Below, one piece after another: positions 44,492 to 55,742 of a stretch of 64,000 bases of DNA. Positions within the stretch are counted from its first letter, which is position 1. Each line of letters starts with the position of its first letter. The notes under the pieces are model-generated. The model saw only the letters and a list, made by a program, of their open reading frames with translations. It had not been told where the DNA came from and ran no database searches. Position numbers and translations under genes: made by a program. Source of the stretch: Methylophilus sp. (GTDB taxonomy: Bacteria; Pseudomonadota; Gammaproteobacteria; Burkholderiales; Methylophilaceae); the NCBI RefSeq assembly GCF_008015755.1, contig NZ_SSGF01000006.1, positions 1-64,000 of the forward strand, in the 5' to 3' direction.

Positions 44492-45025
44492 TTACTTCAT
44501 GTCTGACTTGCTCAACAATAACGCCTTTGCAAGATCGACAGAGTATTGATGATTCAAGTTTGCCTGTGGCGTGTGATTCATAAGCCAGATAATCTTAGTG
44601 AGATCACACTTAGCAATACCACCGTTGTATGCAATGTTTACCTGGTAGAGGTGTGCAAGATCGTTCATGTTTCCTAGCAGCTTTTTACTGGCAGTCTTGC
44701 TGTAGCCATATTCCAAGTAGTCATCCATGACCTGATTAAGCCCGTCTAGCGGCAACTCTAGCAATTTATATAGATTAAATAGGTGATGAATAAATACCTC
44801 GTACACATCATGCTTAAGTCCTTCTGACTTTTTAAAGCCAGTTGCAAGAAAGGACAGCAAGGTCCGATCATTCATGAACAGTAGACATTTACGTCTATCA
44901 ATCACAATCAGATTGACATACCAGTCACCCAATACGCTGTCACTGTTTACCTCATAATCAGTTAGCTCATCAGGCGCTAATGACAAATAGTCTCGTACCT
45001 TCTGGGTACATTTGAATGTCAGCAC
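44492..45025 (-). CDS. DUF6933-like domain protein
   Basis: MLTFKCTQKVRDYLSLAPDEL...LGDWYVNLIVIDRRKCLLFMNDRTLLSFL. Confidence 0.55.
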   Translation of the reverse strand: MLTFKCTQKVRDYLSLAPDELTDYEVNSDSVLGDWYVNLIVIDRRKCLLFMNDRTLLSFLATGFKKSEGLKHDVYEVFIHHLFNLYKLLELPLDGLNQVMDDYLEYGYSKTASKKLLGNMNDLAHLYQVNIAYNGGIAKCDLTKIIWLMNHTPQANLNHQYSVDLAKALLLSKSDMK

Positions 45026-45101
45026 AATTCGTCTTCGAAAAAGTTTGTTATTGAAGAATTATATCTCTTCAATCAACATTTTTTATTGTTACAATAATCA
45101 A

Positions 45102-45740
45102 ATGGAAAATGAAAGAGACAATCAAGCCCCTAAAAAAGCCGGTGGACGTCGGCCTGGTTCAGGCCGCAAATTGGGAACGGGTAACTACCTTGAGCCAACC
45201 ACCGTATTACGTGTACCGGTGAGTCAGAAACTTGTATTAATCGACTTTTTAGAAGCTTATGCTAAAAAACAGCGGGCTCAATCAAGCCGGGCCAATCTGG
45301 ATGGCATCGGTGAGTTTGAGCAATTGCCTGAAGCGTTATCCAAGTTAGATATTTCACTGTATCAGTCTAAAGTAGCAGCTGGCTTTCCTTCTCCTGCTGA
45401 CGACCATGTCGAAAAGCGGCTGGACCCAAACGAATATTTGATTGATCAGGAAGAAAGTACTTTTTTTATCACGATTCAAGGTGAGTCCATGCTTGAGGCT
45501 GGGCTACTACCTGGTGATAAGGCGGTGGTTGATAAATCTAAGACGGCTGAGGTAGGCGACATCGTGCTGGCCATGGTGGATGGTGAATTCACCATTAAGA
45601 CTTTGGCCAAGCAGAAAGATGGAAATCCTAAATTGCTGCCTGCGAATTCGAGCGGGAAATACACGCCCATCATTATTACCGGGGAAATGCAGTTTGAAAT
45701 CTTTGGTGTGGTGATTGGATCATTCAGACGGTTTAAATAG
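45102..45740 (+). CDS. umuD: UmuD-like S24 autoprotease with basic N-terminal extension
   Basis: GGRRPGSGRK; FFITIQGESMLEAGLLPGDKAVVDKS; DGEFTIKTL. Confidence 0.9.
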   Translation: MENERDNQAPKKAGGRRPGSGRKLGTGNYLEPTTVLRVPVSQKLVLIDFLEAYAKKQRAQSSRANLDGIGEFEQLPEALSKLDISLYQSKVAAGFPSPADDHVEKRLDPNEYLIDQEESTFFITIQGESMLEAGLLPGDKAVVDKSKTAEVGDIVLAMVDGEFTIKTLAKQKDGNPKLLPANSSGKYTPIIITGEMQFEIFGVVIGSFRRFK

Positions 45741-45754
45741 CTCGTACAGTTAAC

Positions 45755-45785
45755 AAAAAACCCGGTGTTCTAACCGGGTTTTATT
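45755..45785. terminator. bidirectional terminator between umuD and pqqA
   Basis: aaaaaacccggt-gttcta-accgggtttta. Confidence 0.88.
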
Positions 45786-45807: not shown

Positions 45808-45879
45808 TTACTTGTTCATCACGTACATGGTTACTTCAAAGCCAAAACGCATTTCGGTAGCAGCTGGTTTAGTCCACAT
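45808..45879 (-). CDS. pqqA: PQQ precursor peptide PqqA, copy 1
   Basis: [23 protein letters not shown] with E-x3-Y core; RBS AAGGAGACGATT; 23 aa, absent from ORF track. Confidence 0.95.
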
Positions 45880-46023
45880 AATCGTCTCCTTGGGTTTTCG
45901 ATTTAAAACCGACAACGTGTCGTGTTTCTATGTATCTATGTTGCCCGACTTCATATTCATTTGCATGCGCAAAGCGTGTAAGACACCCTAAGTATTTTAC
46001 GTAAATCAGACCAAGGAAATTTC

Positions 46024-46200
46024 ATGCAGCCAAGCAAAGGTAATACTGCATATCGTGCAATCGCGCTGGTGGATGTGAAGAACTTCTATGTGAGCTGTGA
46101 GCGGGTATTCAACCCAAAGCTATGTAATAAGCCGGTAGTCGTGCTCAGCAACAACGATGGCTGTGCCGTGGCCAGAAGCAATGAAGTTAAAGCGCTCGGA
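46024..46200 (+). pseudogene. umuC: truncated umuC (Y-family polymerase, N-terminal ~59 codons only)
   Basis: [50 protein letters not shown] then unrelated sequence and stop at 46230. Confidence 0.9.
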
Positions 46201-46439
46201 GGCACACACACATACTGTTCTTGCTCGTAGAGCTGAAGACATAGCATTTTTTAATCCTGGAGCCTTATGTGATGGTGGATATGCAGGGTATTGTGTGCTT
46301 GATACTTAAATCTCTGAGTTGCAGATTTATCGATTCTGGAAAGAAAAAAGACGCCTAAATGGTCCGATAAGAATTTCCATTTGAACAATCAGCTTATGGA
46401 AGGCTATTAAATTCTATCTCTCTATAACTTACCTATTCC

Positions 46440-46959
46440 ACACAAGGGGGGGTGCGCAATAATGTGATTTTTGAACTTGGCCTGTTTATCGGCCGCCTCG
46501 GCGTTGGGCGATGCCTTTTCATCACGCCAGACCATGTGGCTGATTTACGGCTAAAGACTGATCTTAATGGGGATAATATCTGGTCAATATGAAGCAAACC
46601 GCCAGGATAAAAACTGGCTGGCAGCAACCAAAACGGTCTGCATGCAAATCCACGACAAGCTGATGGAACTGAAGTCGTTTCAGGATACTAGCATCAGCGT
46701 ACTCAAGGCGGTGGCCTTAACAATCCATCACGAGATACCACAGGAACCAACTCAGAATCACACGACAACAGATGACCATTTCGGGCTAGAGCCACAAGGC
46801 ATAGCTTATGCGCTAACCGGTAATACGTACAGACATAAAGAGGCGATTAAACAAGCCGGTGCTAGTTGGGACAAGGGCATGAAGAAGTGGATTATTCGCG
46901 GCAGTGACAAAGCCAAATTTGAACGCCTGATTCCTAGCGTGAACAGCAGCGCATCGTAA
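46440..46959 (+). pseudogene. decayed TIR-like nucleotide-binding (CBASS/defence-type) protein, C-terminal part, with frameshift
   Basis: VRNNVIFELGLFIGRLGVGRCLFITPDHVADLRLKTDL in one frame, continuing in ORF 46567-46959 as MGIISGQYEANRQDKNWLAATKTVCMQIHDKLMEL...GNTYRHKEAIKQAGASWDKGMKKWII. Confidence 0.72.
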
Positions 46960-46985
46960 GTGCCTATGCTTATGTTAAGAGGCTG

Positions 46986-47498
46986 TTACGCTTTGACAAA
47001 CTGACCGCGTGCTTTGCCACTGAGGAATTGCAGCAAATCTGCAGAATGTACTGCCAGGGCATAGCCTAATACACCGCTGCCTATCACCACGGTTTCATAG
47101 CTGGCAACGCTGTCATCCACCAATACCGTGAGGCCTGCAGGCAAGGCAATTGGCGGCACCGCACCGACCACATAGCCGGTCGCTTCCGGCACTTCGTCAT
47201 ATTCCGCCATGCGGCATTTGCGCTCCCCCAAATGGGCGCGCAACAGTGCCCAATCGGCGCGACCGCCACCAGCAACGGCCAACAGGCAAAACCCTGTGTT
47301 TTCACCTTTAAACACCACACTGCGCACCACCGATTGCGGGTCTAATCCTTGCGCATTTAGTAACTCTTCAAGCTGGCGAATAGGCTTCTTATCTTCACTA
47401 AGGGGGATTTCAATCACTTGAAATAGAATCTGTTGCTGCGCAAGCGACTCAGTCACCGGCGAGTTTAAATGCATATTCACGACACCCTCCTTCATCAA
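46986..47498 (-). CDS. YbaK/EbsC (aminoacyl-tRNA deacylase) domain protein
   Basis: VVRSVVFKGENTGFCLLAVAGGGRADWALL...ATGYVVGAVPPIALPAGLTVLVDDSV. Confidence 0.85.
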   Translation of the reverse strand: MMKEGVVNMHLNSPVTESLAQQQILFQVIEIPLSEDKKPIRQLEELLNAQGLDPQSVVRSVVFKGENTGFCLLAVAGGGRADWALLRAHLGERKCRMAEYDEVPEATGYVVGAVPPIALPAGLTVLVDDSVASYETVVIGSGVLGYALAVHSADLLQFLSGKARGQFVKA

Positions 47499-47525
47499 TA
47501 AAAAACTTTAAATGATTAATATAAT

Positions 47526-47879
47526 CTATTGATATTTCGTATATTTATCGTTACTACCCTTGCATTTTTCAACCGGATATTTTTGCGCATTTAGGTCAAT
47601 TTTGGCATTGGCGGCCGCAATTAAATCGATGCCACAGACCTCCGCAATCCGCATCAGATAGACAAAGGTATCTGCCAACTCCTGGCCAACCTGCACTTTG
47701 GTCTCAGCATCCAGTTGTCGGCTGTCGGACTCTGTCATCCACTGAAAATGCTCAACCACCTCGGCAGCTTCTACAATCATCGCCATCGCCAGGTTTTTAG
47801 GCGAATGAAACTGTGCCCAGTCGCGCTCTTCAACAAAAGCATTCACCCGCGCCCGCAACTCATCAATACTATCAGTCAT
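47526..47879 (-). CDS. MazG-like nucleotide pyrophosphohydrolase
   Basis: RDWAQFHSPKNLAMAMIVEAAEVVEHFQW...ELADTFVYLMRIAE. Confidence 0.93.
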   Translation of the reverse strand: MTDSIDELRARVNAFVEERDWAQFHSPKNLAMAMIVEAAEVVEHFQWMTESDSRQLDAETKVQVGQELADTFVYLMRIAEVCGIDLIAAANAKIDLNAQKYPVEKCKGSNDKYTKYQ

Positions 47880-48003
47880 CTGTATTACGCCTGTTATTAG
47901 TTAACACAAAGTGAATAAAACATTCTTGCCGAAGATAAACGCGGATGCACGCACATAAACTCAACACAAATAATCAGCTGATCAAAAATATTGTATCCGC
48001 GGT

Positions 48004-49191
48004 TTATTCTTGTTTGTCTGCGGCAGGTTGTTCTGGCTTGTCTTTACGGTTACTGCCTGCCACCATTTTAATTTCAAACAAACGGCACTCTAAGGGTCCG
48101 TTATACAACAATGTTTTTTTGCTTGGGCTTAAGCGCATGAGTTTAGGCATGCGCAGATCGTTGGTCAGAAAATAGGCATTCCAGCCTGAAAAACGTTGTT
48201 TCAGTGCTGCTGCCATTAGGGGATACAGCTCGGCCAAAGTGTCATCCTCGCCGATACGCACGCCATATGGCGGGTTGGCTACCAGCACGCCACTCTCAGC
48301 GGGCGGTACAACTTTGGTAAACTCCCAGTGACTGAGTTGCACGGCGTCCAACCAGCCAGCCATTTCTAAATTCTGCTTGGTAACGCGTACAGCACGTAAA
48401 TCCATGTCTGAACCATAAATGCCCTGAAAGCTTACGGGTTTCACCGCCTTGGCTGCGGTATTTCGCACTTTTTTGAAGGTATCTGATTCAAAGTTTTTGA
48501 GCTTTTCAAAGCCAAAATTGCGGTTGAGGCCTGGCGCAATATTCAGCGCGATCATCACCGCTTCAAGTAAAAAGGTTCCGCTACCGCACATAGGGTCGAG
48601 CAAGGCCTGACCTGGCTGCCAGCCGGTGAGTTTTAAAATGCCCGCGGCCAGGTTTTCACGCAATGGCGCCTCAATGCTGTTTTTACGATTACCGCGCTGA
48701 TATAAGGGATTACCAGAGGTATCTACGTAAAGCTGGTAACTGTCAGCGGTCAGGTAGACGTGTACCCTAACGCCGGGCTCCCGTGTATCAATATTCGGAC
48801 GGCTACCCACACTTTGGCGGAATCTATCACAAATGGCGTCTTTAACCCGCAAGGTAATAAACTCCAGACTTTTTAAGGGGCTGCGCACTGCAGTGACCTT
48901 AACCATCATGCTGTGTTTAACGTCAAACCAGTTTGGCCAGTTTATTTTTAACGCACCCTGGTAAATATCTTCTTCTGTGAGATATTTACCACGACCAACC
49001 TGCATCAAAATCCGTGTCGCCACCCGTGAGTGTAAATTGGCGTAATAGCACACCGAGAGCTCGCCACTAAAACTGGCACCGCCTTCAGTTGCCTTGATGT
49101 CTCGTGCCCCGCCCTGCTTAAGCTCTTCGACGAGGATGGATTCGAGCCCACGTGGGCAGGTTGCAAAATATTGGTTCTGAAAATTAGCCAC
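48004..49191 (-). CDS. THUMP-domain class I SAM RNA methyltransferase (RlmL N-terminal/YpsC-like)
   Basis: ATCPRGLESILVEEL; LLDPMCGSGTFLLEA; LVANPPYGVRIGE. Confidence 0.92.
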   Translation of the reverse strand: MANFQNQYFATCPRGLESILVEELKQGGARDIKATEGGASFSGELSVCYYANLHSRVATRILMQVGRGKYLTEEDIYQGALKINWPNWFDVKHSMMVKVTAVRSPLKSLEFITLRVKDAICDRFRQSVGSRPNIDTREPGVRVHVYLTADSYQLYVDTSGNPLYQRGNRKNSIEAPLRENLAAGILKLTGWQPGQALLDPMCGSGTFLLEAVMIALNIAPGLNRNFGFEKLKNFESDTFKKVRNTAAKAVKPVSFQGIYGSDMDLRAVRVTKQNLEMAGWLDAVQLSHWEFTKVVPPAESGVLVANPPYGVRIGEDDTLAELYPLMAAALKQRFSGWNAYFLTNDLRMPKLMRLSPSKKTLLYNGPLECRLFEIKMVAGSNRKDKPEQPAADKQE

Positions 49192-49975
49192 CGAGTGTGA
49201 ACTCCTTACCGTTATTAGGATTTGCGCCCTGTAAACGGTCTATTAAATCTATAAAGTTAATGTCATGCGACTGCATGGCATCTTGTGCGCGCTTACGCAA
49301 CGCAGCCAAATCTGGCATGGCCAGCTCTGGTTTAAAGCCAAACACAATGATGTTACCGGGCTTACCGGTAGGCATCATTAACACGCGCTGCTCAAAGGTT
49401 TGCTCCATCCGCTGCATGTAAATATCAAACTTTTTGTCTGACCCCCAGAGGTTAATGGTAAACAGACCATCAGGCGTCAACGCCTCAGCACAATCATCAA
49501 AAAATGACTGTGTACAGAAGTCTGGTGGCAAGCCATTACTGCCAAACGCATCCATCATTAACCAGTCTGAGCCACCCGGGTGTTGCTGGATATGAGCAAT
49601 GCCATCGCCCTCAATAATCTGCAAACGCTCATCATCATCAGGCACAAAAAAATGACTGCGGGCGACCTGGATCACCTGCGGGTTAAGCTCAATCACGGTT
49701 TGCTGAATCTGCGGGCAATATTTCCATACGTATTTGGCAATTGAGCCGCCGCCTAAGCCGACAAGCGTTAATTGTCGGCTATCAGGTTTGAATAATAGGC
49801 TGCTCAGCACGCCCCATGAATAGGCCAGCACCAGTGCATAAGGATCTTTGACTTTCATGCTGCTTTGAATCGTCGGCGAGCCCAGGTGCATAGAGCGTAC
49901 GCCATCGGTTTCAGTGACTTCGACCATCTCGAAGTCTGACACCGCTTTGTGAATTTTTCGGTTAAATTTAAACAT
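49184..49975 (-). CDS. spermidine synthase-like methyltransferase-fold protein
   Basis: LTLVGLGGGSIAKYV...QTVIELNPQVIQVAR; DWLMMDAFGSNGLP. Confidence 0.85.
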   Translation of the reverse strand: MFKFNRKIHKAVSDFEMVEVTETDGVRSMHLGSPTIQSSMKVKDPYALVLAYSWGVLSSLLFKPDSRQLTLVGLGGGSIAKYVWKYCPQIQQTVIELNPQVIQVARSHFFVPDDDERLQIIEGDGIAHIQQHPGGSDWLMMDAFGSNGLPPDFCTQSFFDDCAEALTPDGLFTINLWGSDKKFDIYMQRMEQTFEQRVLMMPTGKPGNIIVFGFKPELAMPDLAALRKRAQDAMQSHDINFIDLIDRLQGANPNNGKEFTLGG

Positions 49976-51915
49976 TATGCGTTCTCTGCCACATCAGGCT
50001 GACTGTCGGCTGTCGAAGTTTCTGCAAGCGCCATGGGCTCTTCAGCACCAATAGCCTCGTCAACACCAGTCGTACTCACCTCTTCAATCACGCTCACAAA
50101 CTTGCACTCGAGCTCCATGAGTAAAGTATCTATTTTTTGGATAGTCAGGCGTACCTTGCTGCCAGGTTTGGTGGCCGGCAAGCTATGCACCTTGGTCATA
50201 TAAGGCAATCGCTCCAGGCGCACCAGATTTTCGCGCCACACGGTGGCGTCGATTTCAGTGATACTTTCCTGGATCAGGTATTGCAAACACCAATAGCGTT
50301 CCATGCGCGTCTGGAACTCATTGTAAGCATTGTAGGTTTGGTCAAAATTGCGCATATGGCCGACAATTTCATCGCCATTTGAGGCATACACCGGCGGCTG
50401 CAAGGTCAACACGCTGATCAATTGTCGCTGGTTGATTAAATCCACCGCACGGCGCAAAGGCGAGGTACACCAGGCATATTGCGCCACGCCCAGGCCCTGA
50501 TGACCTTCGGCTTTGGTCGTCATATACACTTTACCGCCATTTTGCGCCCGGTAAATCCCTGGCACATCATTTTCGGCCAACAACAATCCCCATTGGCTAT
50601 TCGCTGCAATCATCAGCTCGGCCACCAGTTTATCCATCGGCGACCCGCGCTGGCGATTGACAATATTGACGATGCCATCGCTGACATAAAAGTTGTAATC
50701 CACTGGCTGCGGTCTGGTCGGGTCATATTTGCCGCGGGCTTTTTCCAGGCTTTCGGCAAAGTGAAACAAAAACACCAGCGACGACCACAGCGGATGGCCG
50801 CTATCTTGCGCCAAGGTGGTTTCATTGAAATAAGGCTCCAGCGTGTCGTGACGCAAGTTTTCCGCAATCTGCACGCGCTCTAAGCAACTATGCTGGTGGA
50901 CAATGCTGAAGTCAAGCGCCACCTCCAAATACAATGACAACGCAGGTTTGGTTTCACCCGCATCCAAGCTAAAGGGTCGGATCGCCGCTTCTGGCAACAT
51001 AGTGATTTTGTGCCCAGGCATATACACTGTAGACAAACGCTTCATCACCTCGTGATCCAGCGCTTGGTGTGGCGCCACACCCAAGGCCGGCGCGGCGATA
51101 TGAATACCGACCTGCGTATTACCATTGGGCAGGGCCGTCACCGACAAGGCATCATCAATCTCCGTGGTGGTGCTGTCATCAATACTAAATGCCTGCACCG
51201 TAGACAACGGTAGATCAGAAGGCAAATCTGCCAGTGAAAAATCAGGGAACGCCGTGCCTGAGGCAAAATACTCGCGTAAAAATGCCCCCAAGTGGTAATT
51301 ATGCACAGAAGGGATCGCCCCGGCCGCATGCAACACTTGCACGGGCAACTGCTTGAGCTCAGCCGCCGCTTGCTCCAGCGCCTTCCACTCCATGCTGTTT
51401 TTATCAGGTGCATATAACAAGGCATCGAGTTTGGCAGCAAAACTCTCTGGCAAGGCCTGCGCCTTGAGTTGTGCCACCATTTGCGCCATGAGTTCAGCTT
51501 GCTGGCGTTTTTTTTCCAGCCCGGCCATGGCGGCTTTCAGGGTCTCTTCAGGCGCAGCTTTATAACGACCTTTGCCTTTGCGGTAAAAATACATGGGCGC
51601 CGCGTGCAGCTTGAGCGCAATGGCGGCTGCTTGCTGGCGACTCGGCTTGCCACCGTAATACTCTTGCGCCAAATCCTCAAAAGCAAACTCCGGCTCACCA
51701 CAGCATTCCCACAAAAAGTCCGTATCCAGTGTATCGGACTCAGCCTGAGCGGCCTCAAGAAAGCCAGACAAGCTGCCTTCAAAGCGCATCAATACATTAG
51801 CGGTTTTGATCTTGCTGCGTTTACCAGTGCTGGCTTCAACTTGCATGCTGCTGTCAGCCTCAGACATGAGGGAAGCGACTTTAAAGCCACCGTCTTCTTC
51901 GTAAAAAACATTCAT
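49975..51915 (-). CDS. RNB-domain exoribonuclease (RNase II family)
   Basis: AFSIDDSTTTEIDDALSV; CTSPLRRAVDLINQRQL. Confidence 0.92.
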   Translation of the reverse strand: MNVFYEEDGGFKVASLMSEADSSMQVEASTGKRSKIKTANVLMRFEGSLSGFLEAAQAESDTLDTDFLWECCGEPEFAFEDLAQEYYGGKPSRQQAAAIALKLHAAPMYFYRKGKGRYKAAPEETLKAAMAGLEKKRQQAELMAQMVAQLKAQALPESFAAKLDALLYAPDKNSMEWKALEQAAAELKQLPVQVLHAAGAIPSVHNYHLGAFLREYFASGTAFPDFSLADLPSDLPLSTVQAFSIDDSTTTEIDDALSVTALPNGNTQVGIHIAAPALGVAPHQALDHEVMKRLSTVYMPGHKITMLPEAAIRPFSLDAGETKPALSLYLEVALDFSIVHQHSCLERVQIAENLRHDTLEPYFNETTLAQDSGHPLWSSLVFLFHFAESLEKARGKYDPTRPQPVDYNFYVSDGIVNIVNRQRGSPMDKLVAELMIAANSQWGLLLAENDVPGIYRAQNGGKVYMTTKAEGHQGLGVAQYAWCTSPLRRAVDLINQRQLISVLTLQPPVYASNGDEIVGHMRNFDQTYNAYNEFQTRMERYWCLQYLIQESITEIDATVWRENLVRLERLPYMTKVHSLPATKPGSKVRLTIQKIDTLLMELECKFVSVIEEVSTTGVDEAIGAEEPMALAETSTADSQPDVAENA

Positions 51916-52034
51916 GTAGGGAAATTAAACGTGTGGAAATCACACTTGAGTGTATTAAAACGCTATTTTACCCGAGAAGACCGCAGTTTTTTGGCAAGCA
52001 ATGAACTTTAGCCAAGGATAATGACTAAAATAGC

Positions 52035-53624
52035 ATGATGAAGCCCCTGACATTTGACAACCGTTTTACCCGCGAACTTCCCGGGGACCCGATCTCAGAA
52101 AATTACACCAGGCAAGTCAGTGACTGTTTGTGGTCGCCAGTACAACCGACCCCAGTCAAAAACCCGCAATTACTGGCTTATAGCCCTGAAGTTGCTGAAC
52201 TCCTGGGTTTTTGCGCCGCGGACATGCAGGACCGTGACCTGATACAGACGTTGGGCGGCAATGGCATCTTGGATGGCATGTTCAGTTATGCCACCCGTTA
52301 CGGCGGTCACCAGTTTGGGCACTGGGCCGGGCAACTCGGCGATGGCCGTGCCATTTACCTGGGTGAACTCATCCACGCGGGCCAACGCTTTGAGCTGCAA
52401 CTGAAAGGCGCTGGCGAAACCCCTTACTCCCGTTCGGCAGATGGCCGTGCGGTGCTGCGCTCCAGCCTGCGTGAATTCTTGTGCTCAGAAGCCATGCATC
52501 ACCTCGGCGTGCCGACCACGCGTGCCTTAAGCCTAGTGACCACCGGCAACCAGGTGGTACGCGATATGTTTTATAACGGCAATCCGCAGCTAGAGCCCGG
52601 CGCGATTGTCTGCCGTGTCGCACCTTCATTTACCCGTTTTGGCCATTTTGAAATACTGGCCAGCCGCAACGAATTAACGTTATTAAAACGCCTGGTCGGC
52701 TTTACCATCGACCGCGACTTTGCTGACTGGTGGCCAACGACCGGCTTGGCGTTAGACATGAACGACCCATCTGCCGAACTGATTGAAACATGGTTTGAAG
52801 AAGTGTGTTCGCGCACAGCCAGCATGGTCGCGCACTGGATGCGTGTTGGTTTTGTGCATGGCGTGATGAACACCGACAATATGTCGATATTAGGCCTGAC
52901 CATCGACTATGGCCCGTATGGCTGGGTGGATAACTTTGACCCGGGCTGGACACCAAACACCACCGACGCACAAGGTCGCCGCTACTGTTTTGGCCGTCAG
53001 CCAGATATCGCACGCTGGAACCTGGAGCGGCTGGCAGAAGCACTCGGCACCTTACTGCCAGACACGCAAGGCCTGGCGGATGGCTTAGCGACTTATGACC
53101 AGACCTACATCCGCGCCTTGACCACTAGCCTGGCAGCCAAGTTTGGCTTTGATCGCTGGCAAGACGGCGATGGCGAGCTGATTAACCATATTTTTGAGCT
53201 GATGCAACGCGCTGAAGTCGATCAGACCCTGTTCTTTACCCTGTTGGCGAAACTGGACATCGCACAGCCTCAACTGGCAACGCTGGCAGAAGCGTTTTAT
53301 ACCGAGCAAGGTCAGCAACAGTTTGGCACTGATATTCAAGCCTGGTTGCAACAATATAGTCTGCGTTTACAACAATCGGCATTAGCGCCGGAGCAGCGCT
53401 TGCAAAAAATGGCGGCAGCCAACCCGATTTACGTGCTGCGTAACTACCTGGCGCAAGAGGCGATTGACTTGGCAACTCAGGGCGACAACAGCCGTTTGCT
53501 GGAGCTATTAGACGTATTACGCCACCCCTACACCTTACAACCAGGCAAAGCAGCCTTTGCGCAAAAGCGCCCGGACTGGGCGCGGCAAAAGGCCGGTTGC
53601 TCGATGCTATCGTGTAGTTCATAA
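52035..53624 (+). CDS. selO: protein adenylyltransferase SelO (YdiU/UPF0061)
   Basis: RYGGHQFGHWAGQLGDGRAIYLGE; LKGAGETPYSRSADGRAVLRSS; HGVMNTDNMSILGLTIDYGPYGW; C-terminal SCSS. Confidence 0.96.
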   Translation: MMKPLTFDNRFTRELPGDPISENYTRQVSDCLWSPVQPTPVKNPQLLAYSPEVAELLGFCAADMQDRDLIQTLGGNGILDGMFSYATRYGGHQFGHWAGQLGDGRAIYLGELIHAGQRFELQLKGAGETPYSRSADGRAVLRSSLREFLCSEAMHHLGVPTTRALSLVTTGNQVVRDMFYNGNPQLEPGAIVCRVAPSFTRFGHFEILASRNELTLLKRLVGFTIDRDFADWWPTTGLALDMNDPSAELIETWFEEVCSRTASMVAHWMRVGFVHGVMNTDNMSILGLTIDYGPYGWVDNFDPGWTPNTTDAQGRRYCFGRQPDIARWNLERLAEALGTLLPDTQGLADGLATYDQTYIRALTTSLAAKFGFDRWQDGDGELINHIFELMQRAEVDQTLFFTLLAKLDIAQPQLATLAEAFYTEQGQQQFGTDIQAWLQQYSLRLQQSALAPEQRLQKMAAANPIYVLRNYLAQEAIDLATQGDNSRLLELLDVLRHPYTLQPGKAAFAQKRPDWARQKAGCSMLSCSS

Positions 53625-53626
53625 TT

Positions 53627-54097
53627 TTGGCCATGCAAACCGCCGAACAACTGATCACCGATGCTGGCCTGCGCCCGACGAAAGCACGCTTAGCTGTGTT
53701 AAACACTTTGCTCAACTCCCCAACGGCGCTTAGTCACACTGAAATCCTAGCTGCGTTGCAAGGTATCAAGGAAATTGACCGGGTGACGGTTTACCGCGTA
53801 CTGGACTGGCTACAAGAAAACACCTTAATTCATAAAATATCCACCGATGACCGCGCCTGGAAGTTTCAGCTCAATATGCCGCCTAGTCGCAGCTATAAAG
53901 CCGCAGAAACCAGCAACACAGGCTTATTAAACAGTCACGGACATGCCCATTTGCAATGCCAGCGCTGTGGTACCGTGCTGTGTATCCATGAGTTAGCGGC
54001 GCATATTCCGCCAGCCATTTTCGCCACCTATCAGATATCGCACATTGAAATCAACCTGAAAGGCCTTTGCTTGCAATGCCAGCAAGCTGTGGCCTGA
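53627..54097 (+). CDS. Fur-family regulator, probably Zur
   Basis: LRPTKARLAVLNTLLNS; DRVTVYRVLDWL; CxxC pairs; upstream of zinc-type GTPase. Confidence 0.85.
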   Translation: MAMQTAEQLITDAGLRPTKARLAVLNTLLNSPTALSHTEILAALQGIKEIDRVTVYRVLDWLQENTLIHKISTDDRAWKFQLNMPPSRSYKAAETSNTGLLNSHGHAHLQCQRCGTVLCIHELAAHIPPAIFATYQISHIEINLKGLCLQCQQAVA

Positions 54098-54169
54098 TCG
54101 AGTAAGCCACATCGCCAATACAGTCTGTTTCACTTAGCACGCACTGGCACAGCCGTGCACATCAAAAAA

Positions 54170-54184
54170 TGCAACTAAGTTGCA
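54170..54184. promoter_or_regulatory. palindrome 1 upstream of GTPase gene, putative Zur operator
   Basis: TGCAACT-A-AGTTGCA perfect. Confidence 0.55.
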
Positions 54185-54205
54185 ATAAAAACCATCCCAG
54201 CCTAA

Positions 54206-54224
54206 AATGCAACAAAATTGCATT
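54206..54224. promoter_or_regulatory. palindrome 2 upstream of GTPase gene, putative Zur operator
   Basis: AATGCAA-CAAAA-TTGCATT perfect. Confidence 0.55.
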
Positions 54225-54241
54225 TAATGAAAGGATGCGAA

Positions 54242-55471
54242 ATGAACAAGCTGCCAGTCACCGTACTTTCCGGCTTTTTAGGCGCCGGCAAAACCACCCT
54301 GCTCAACCATATTCTCAATAACCGCGAAGGCAAACGTGTCGCCGTGATTGTGAATGATATGTCTGAGGTCAATATTGACGCCCAGTTGGTGCGTGACGGC
54401 GGTGCCGAGCTCTCGCGCCAGGAAGAAAAACTGGTGGAGATGAGCAATGGTTGCATCTGCTGCACCTTGCGTGAAGACTTGTTGGTGGAAATCACGCGCC
54501 TGGCCAAAGAGGGGCGTTTTGATTACCTGCTGATAGAAACGACCGGCATCTCAGAGCCATTGCCCATTGCCGAAACCTTTACCTTTGCCGATGAAGAAGG
54601 CGTCTCACTTGGCGATGTCGCCCAATTGGACACTATGGTGACGGTGGTAGATGGCTACAACTTTCTAAAAGACTATAGCTCGCAAGACATGCTGCAAGAC
54701 CGCGGCGAATCGCTAGGCGAAGAAGATGAACGTACTGTGGTGGATTTGCTGGTCGACCAGATCGAGTTTTGCGATGTATTAGTGTTGAATAAAACTGACC
54801 TGATGACGCTGGATGAAATTGCCCGGCTGGAGGGGATTCTCAGAACGCTGAACCCACGTGCGCAGATCATTCATAGCAGTTTTGGCAAAGTACCTTTGCA
54901 CCGCATGATGAATACAGGCCTGTTCGACTTTGACCAGGCCGCCGAAGCGCCGGGCTGGCTGCAGGAGTTACGTGGCGAGCATGTACCAGAAAGTGAAGAA
55001 TACGGCATCTCCAGCTTTGTGTACCGCGCTCGCACACCATTTCACCCGCAACGCTTATGGCAATGGTTTAACCAGGCATGGCCGGGCGTCGTCCGTTCTA
55101 AAGGCCGTTACTGGATTGCCTCGCGGCCTGAGTTCTGCGCCACCTGGTCGCAAGCGGGCGCCGTCACCCGCACCGAGCTGGCGGGCATGTGGTGGGCGGC
55201 TACGCCCAAGGAATATTGGCCTGAGGATGCTGAGACCCTGCAGCATATACACTCGCGCATGCAAGGGCCGTATGGTGACCGCCAGCAAGAGCTGGTCCTC
55301 ATAGGCATAGCGATGGATAAAACCGCGCTCACCGCTGCGTTTGATGCCTGCCTCATGACAGAAGCTGAGGTCGCAGCTGGCATGGATGCCTGGCGCACGC
55401 TCAGCGACCCGTTTCCGCAATGGTCTATCCATACGCAAAACCAATCGGAGGACACCTTCGTAGAAGCCTAA
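54242..55471 (+). CDS. COG0523 GTP-binding metal (zinc) chaperone, ZigA-like
   Basis: [33 protein letters not shown]. Confidence 0.93.
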
Positions 55472-55610
55472 GCTGATAAGCAAACTACGTAAAATCATGA
55501 GCCGCTTTTACGGATTCGCTTCAGGGTGGTTTTGCAACATCGGCGTATATTGTGAGTCATACAAGCACATCAAGCACGATGTACTTAACAAACAACTTAA
55601 GGAGATCATT

Positions 55611-55682
55611 ATGTGGACTAAACCAGCTGCGACTGAAATGCGTTTTGGCTTTGAAGTGACCATGTACGTCATGAACAAATAA
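55611..55682 (+). CDS. pqqA: PQQ precursor peptide PqqA, copy 2
   Basis: [38 protein letters not shown]; own terminator. Confidence 0.95.
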   Translation: MWTKPAATEMRFGFEVTMYVMNK

Positions 55683-55711: not shown

Positions 55712-55742
55712 AAAAAACCGCCGGATTCCGGCGGTTTTTTTA
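55712..55742 (+). terminator. Rho-independent terminator of pqqA copy 2
   Basis: aaaaaaccgccgg-att-ccggcggttttttt. Confidence 0.93.

Follow-up and report, generated by a model that had tools for sequence, protein, structure and literature searches.

The window analyzed here, 64,000 nucleotides of Methylophilus sp. contig NZ_SSGF01000006.1, holds two genes for the same 23-amino acid PqqA peptide, at 45808-45879 (−) and 55611-55682 (+), whose DNA differs at five positions, all synonymous. These are ordinary genes for PqqA, the precursor of pyrroloquinoline quinone (PQQ), in transcription units of ~280 bp comprising operator, promoter, leader, gene and terminator, and they are two of eight pqqA copies in the genome. 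Most copies share a 17-bp dyad with the unlinked pqqBCDE operon, and the same dyad precedes a PqqU-like receptor gene and about half of the pqqA genes that we found in phages. We judge it quite probable that the copies, under common control via the shared dyad, raise the supply of a consumed precursor by gene dose, with phages tapping the same circuit.

Dispersed pqqA copies and a single pqqBCDE operon

The PqqA peptide scored 42.4 bits against Pfam PF08042 (cut-off 21.1) and 40.4 bits against TIGR02107 (cut-off 20), about twice the curated cut-offs, so the window genes are not chance reading frames. These scores and the sequence itself agree with the initial annotation, which had reported the identical peptides, the five synonymous differences, the AAGGAG ribosome binding site just 5′ of each ATG, and terminators at both genes. 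A genome-wide count (2.75 Mb, 40 contigs) raised the number from two to eight, every one encoding these same 23 residues; besides the pair in the window, there are two on contig C23, one on C13 and three on C16. Distinct flanks, distinct DNA and the profile scores rule out chance or artefact, and likewise assembly duplication, as the source of the copies.

The sole pqqBCDE operon lies on another contig, C33, where PqqE scored 506.5 bits and adjoining reading frames are consistent with PqqB, C and D; none was found in the window, as the initial annotation had stated. No pqqA was found directly upstream of pqqB in this genome (G000) or in the named Methylophilus relatives. Because the only pqqBCDE operon has no pqqA of its own, every copy acts in trans, which bears out the earlier proposal of stand-alone cassettes supplying PQQ precursor. 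Across the family, pqqA lies 140-330 bp ahead of pqqB in 61 of the 75 loci where the start of pqqB was identified; Methylophilus thus seems to have lost the operon-linked gene and to rely on dispersed copies, although our genus set includes a divergent clade (e.g., G009 and G020) with pqqA still linked to pqqB.

Multiplicity is general. We found 3-10 copies of pqqA in 22 of 22 genus genomes and 1-12 copies in 120 of 120 family genomes (at least two copies in 114), while pqqE was single in 109 of the 112 family genomes with a pqqE match; in a class sample, pqqA was found in 20 of 140 genomes, the other 19 carrying 1-4 copies. Multi-copy pqqA was already known in methylotrophs, as the initial annotation had stated: Table 4 of PMC4109929 gives 3-12 pqqA genes for Methylophilaceae (5 for Methylophilus) with single other pqq genes, as ‘noted before’, and our genome likewise combines dispersed pqqA with a single set of other pqq genes. 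Dispersal as cassettes, which had been thought less ordinary, is therefore real but normal for Methylophilaceae, as judged from our family counts and that table. The table gives counts, with no shared operator, pqqU link, or loss of linked pqqA in Methylophilus; what is new here appears to be the shared dyad and its targets.

Among 83 pqqA copies from 13 genomes there were 65 DNA variants but only six peptides. The Glu-x3-Tyr pair that PqqE cross-links was intact (EVTMY) in 83 of 83 host copies and in the viral copies found, although the search pattern for the latter already demanded these residues. Codons GAA and CGT are fixed and CCA nearly so, while the window's genes use alternatives to these codons; together with the conserved peptide, this would be expected of a highly translated, functionally constrained product. 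Judging from this pattern, with almost no amino acid change in relatives, the peptide is under strong purifying selection, which upholds the earlier view of diverged copies with the whole peptide conserved. Two outcomes that the initial annotation had named as refuting it, a genome lacking pqqBCDE and nonsynonymous decay in close relatives, were thus not observed. The idea that one copy works while the rest are drifting duplicates can draw on the title of Ge et al. 2015, which names one dominant copy in Methylovorus; yet pairs of the eight copies differ by up to 8 synonymous changes with zero amino acid change, and start codon, Shine-Dalgarno sequence and stop codon are retained throughout the 83 copies, so that we give this idea the least credence of the readings considered.

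A shared dyad, the putative operator

De novo motif finding showed that the upstream regions of Methylophilus pqqA share CTnnnnAAAATCATGAG. The element is a 17-bp dyad in 7-3-7 arrangement, with CTCATGA-AAA-TCATGAG as its perfect version. Of the 65 copies whose core is clear, 52 have it beginning 55 or 56 bases 5′ of the -10 hexamer, placing the dyad center near -65 from the inferred start, and a weaker second dyad stands exactly 23 bp downstream, near -42, in each of two independent sets. No good -35 was evident in the promoter sequence that we read. A dyad near -65 or -42 in the lack of a good -35 is the geometry of activator-dependent promoters, and by this geometry the pqqA promoters would be activator-dependent. 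A perfect palindrome, GCTCATGAAAATCATGAGC, also stands ahead of pqqBCDE, with TATGAT 55 bases after the core.

Across the 22 genomes the exact core occurred at 105 sites, of which 77 precede pqqA and 10 precede pqqB, while a reversed control pattern gave zero sites; these counts come from exact pattern searches, which miss degenerate sites such as that of C23:52809. Twenty of the sites had no initial assignment: two of these turned out to precede pqqB, one was at a contig end, two were before a glycine-zipper gene, and most others were intragenic. The dyad is not confined to Methylophilus, in that unseeded motif finding upstream of 53 operon-linked pqqA genes, almost all of them belonging to other genera, returned TCATGA-AWW-TACTTAG or TCATGAG. 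The dyad presumably binds a regulator. A text search of the literature for its core found no paper, and the operator is apparently undescribed so far. A response regulator beside the C16:59611 copy came up as a candidate for the protein reading the dyad, but nothing ties the two together and the neighbor is not constant among relatives. One AAAATCATGAGCT core, at C16:69176-69188 (−), has no pqqA downstream and may be a remnant or chance.

The initial annotation had suggested that the copies might be under different regulation; on that reading, each would be kept for its own condition. The operator halves, the -10 hexamers (TATAGT vs. CATACT) and the leaders do fall into classes, one of which has a degenerate dyad; five pqqA copies in a PQQ-producing methylotroph strain were unequally expressed by quantitative PCR (PMC9851590); and Methylovorus sp. 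MP688 likewise has several pqqA genes in one strain, there reported, in the title of Ge et al. 2015, as responding differently. Against this, both window copies, most others and pqqBCDE share the dyad at a similar promoter distance, so their layout favors common control, operator and -10 quality varying among copies, and we regard separate regulation as unlikely.

Other targets of the dyad

A scan for degenerate dyads that ignored gene function returned pqqA, pqqB and one more conserved target, a TonB-dependent receptor gene in 14 genomes, with the palindrome CTCAGTATTTTCATGAAAATACTGAG starting 39 bases 5′ of TACAAT. The receptor gene sits between coaBC-like and dut-like genes; it was read in 5 of the 14 genomes and assigned in the remainder by identical site sequence. 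Among solved structures, the receptor is closest to YncD (6v81) and the PQQ transporter (9c4o), with a phmmer E-value of 1e-125 over residues 35-714, so that it is a full-length homolog of E. coli YncD/PqqU, the importer described in PMC12124388. Its best NCBIfam family is also PqqU, at 531 bits; because this is below the equivalog cut-off of 1200, we call the receptor PqqU-like. A function-blind scan with an operator derived from pqqA thus reached a gene for PQQ import. PMC12124388 took the lack of synteny between pqqU and pqq operons as a sign that their regulation is generally independent, whereas here pqqU and pqq genes share an operator despite the lack of synteny; that is, a cis element is shared at the promoters of unlinked genes, as in a coordinated regulon.

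Alternatively, the dyad might be read by a global regulator or belong to promoters in general. Perfect or near-perfect dyads do occur between or before divergent glycine-zipper and pentapeptide-repeat genes in five genomes (L443:3286-5164, L439, L440, L441, L206 and L207). Nonetheless 71 of the 79 degenerate-dyad places in 22 genomes were pqqA, pqqB or pqqU sites (pqqU partly by identical site sequence), and six loci of the methanol dehydrogenase family, scanned on the idea that methanol dehydrogenase genes share the operator, had no comparable promoter site. We consider a global element improbable.

pqqA in phages

Searching phage records by tblastn revealed pqqA in the Methylophilales phages Venkman, P19250A, MEP301, MEP401, MEP402 and Melnitz, and in ctXG6705. 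Most of these sites have no annotated gene, and at those of ctXG6705 and Melnitz a gene is annotated on the opposite strand; the methylophage records with pqqA unannotated or overlapped on the wrong strand are MW202481, MT375522, KX815270, MW452941, OP830907 and MZ577097. Two scans of IMG/VR gave at least 203 distinct stretches with viral pqqA. Neighbors of viral pqqA include genes for major head proteins, exonuclease and ribonucleotide reductase, and because of such phage-type neighbors we take the contigs that we read closely to be viral. In several viral contigs (L263, L305, L278, L259, L290 and L294) pqqA adjoins the major head protein gene (phrog_371), which suggests a preferred site there. 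A PHROGs search with the PqqA peptide found no family match. PqqA has been described in one Lake Baikal virus population, VP_266, a phage of methylotrophs that also carries methanol dehydrogenase (PMC7678222), with no operator described; in the paper on Melnitz (PMC9004378), whose text we searched for PQQ, the compound appears solely as an ingredient of the medium.

Unseeded motif finding in 101 viral upstream regions recovered the dyad ~90 bases 5′ of the ATG, with a log-likelihood ratio (LLR) of 558 vs. 52-60 for shuffled sequences. A matrix built from host sites only matched 50 of the 101 viral leaders (2.8% expected), and 24 of 52 in a second, non-overlapping viral set (P = 1.7e–23). Viral dyad-to--10 spacings clustered at 38-39 and at 60-62, in agreement with the two positions seen in hosts. 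With pqqA minigenes in Methylophilaceae phages, about half of them bearing the operator, phages probably draw on the host circuit. Outside this group, one Acinetobacter phage record (CAKLQF020000010.1:108210-108263) has a weak PqqA-like match, 78% over 18 amino acids, and similar weak matches occur in Acinetobacter records of a plasmid collection.

Movement and flanks of the cassettes

Copy 1 lies antisense between an intact umuD-like gene and a umuC stump ending at ~46200. Another Methylophilus genome (L111) has a complete umuC in the corresponding region, which matches the window at 95% identity over 1184 bp, as far as the break. The umuD-pqqA-umuC arrangement recurs at the C23:52809 copy. 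Copies have sequence in common from operator through terminator and no further, as with copy 2 and C23:51056, which show 85% identity between -129 and +135/151. The Fur-family gene and the ZigA-type zinc metallochaperone gene (53627-55471) stand directly 5′ of copy 2; relatives' versions of this locus retain a chemotaxis gene on the other side and have a different upstream neighbor. Two tandem units at C16:73334 and C16:73798, 464 bp apart and 92% identical over 312 bp, look like a recent local duplication.

Given such mobility, the dispersed cassettes might be selfish, or delivered by phages, and of no dosage value: copy 1 travels with a umuDC module, copy 2 shares its cassette with another locus, and phages carry pqqA with the same operator. 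This seems very improbable: no terminal repeats were found beyond the pqqA cassette itself, several copies (e.g., that on C13) hold the same position in many genomes of the genus, the peptide appears to be under strong purifying selection, and the codons of the phage genes differ, many using AGA or AGG for arginine, which occur in none of the 83 host copies.

Features of the window units

Coordinates are collected in Table 1. The copy 2 dyad scores 28.8 bits and is the only site in the window above 11 bits. Its tandem partner is a prediction for that single copy, the offset of 23 being the best in two independent sets. The terminator tool called the copy 2 terminator and gave no call for the copy 1 hairpin, although hairpin and T run are visible in the sequence, probably because some of the T run is taken up into the stem. 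A leader hairpin was rejected as a general pqqA feature, since true covariation was confined to one promoter class and the hairpin is thus class-specific. An Rfam scan of the pqqA region of the window returned nothing.

Table 1. Features of the two pqqA units and of the copy 1 flanks, in window coordinates
Feature	Position	Strand	Basis or state
umuD-like gene flanking copy 1 (S24 peptidase)	45012..45740	+	intact
Intrinsic terminator, copy 1, AACCCGGT-TAGAAC-ACCGGGTT + T run	45755..45780 (hairpin 45759-45780)	-	read from sequence
pqqA copy 1, 23 aa	45808..45879	-	sequence; genome search; Pfam/NCBIfam
Shine-Dalgarno AAGGAG, copy 1	45886..45891	-	sequence
Leader hairpin CGACA-CGT-TGTCG, 5′ of copy 1	45910..45922	-	fold z = -1.3, weak
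Dyad operator TTACGTA-AAA-TACTTAG, copy 1, 125 nt 5′ of ATG	45988..46004	-	genome-wide dyad scan; de novo motif
umuC 5′ remnant, first ~56 codons then unrelated sequence	46030..46200	+	tblastn; L111 comparison
Dyad operator CTACGTA-AAA-TCATGAG, copy 2, 126 nt 5′ of ATG	55485..55501	+	matrix and dyad scans
Second, weaker dyad TTACGGA-TTC-GCTTCAG, copy 2, 23 bp 3′ of first, putative tandem site	55508..55524	+	offset scan
-10 hexamer TATATT, copy 2, 61 nt after dyad start	55546..55551	+	fixed-spacing analysis
5′ leader hairpin AAGCACATC-AAGCAC-GATGTACTT, copy 2	55563..55586	+	fold z = -2.3; covariation across 17 copies
Shine-Dalgarno AAGGAG, copy 2	55599..55604	+	sequence
pqqA copy 2, same 23-aa peptide	55611..55682	+	sequence; genome search
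Intrinsic terminator, copy 2	55712..55740	+	terminator tool

Discussion

Common control of a gene-dose supply would work as follows. Each PqqA molecule is consumed in making one PQQ, so that extra pqqA copies would raise precursor supply; eight short and presumably strong transcription units would feed one pqqBCDE in trans, nearly all of them carrying the dyad at a fixed distance 5′ of the -10, at about -65 and/or -42, the usual place for an activator. With the dyad before pqqA, pqqBCDE and pqqU, one putative DNA-binding protein reading it probably coordinates precursor, enzymes and import. For phages, carrying this unit may serve to boost PQQ production in infected cells and so supply methanol dehydrogenase.

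Several observations weigh against this account. Copy 1 has the dyad, but no clear -10 stands at the canonical spacing, and in the copy class of C23:52809 the dyad is degenerate. Roughly half of the viral pqqA genes had no dyad match at the threshold used, MEP402 among them with none. The pqqU-like gene is split by an in-frame stop in this assembly (L435:4985-7144, on contig C5 of this genome) into two same-frame open reading frames of 133 and 577 amino acids, either truly or by assembly error, and is intact in relatives. Finally, the multiple pqqA genes of Methylovorus reportedly respond differently with one dominating, which would limit equal contribution.

For the phages, the finding points to tiny viral metabolic genes as a class missed by annotation, with no PHROGs match and, in several isolate records, no gene at the site. 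For the hosts, the question is no longer why there are two pqqA genes but which factor reads the operator they share, and the conservation of a short palindrome across hosts and viruses should make the regulator controlling PQQ directly findable by pull-down. We lean toward the wider view that Methylophilaceae have a dedicated PQQ-homeostasis regulon, in which mostly 3-12 pqqA genes, pqqBCDE and pqqU would answer to one dyad and its putative regulator, and that diverse phages of these bacteria carry minigenes of operator plus pqqA, small enough to escape gene callers, which would raise PQQ and methanol oxidation during infection. PQQ synthesis and uptake may thus be coordinated in trans, where the PqqU literature had inferred independence.

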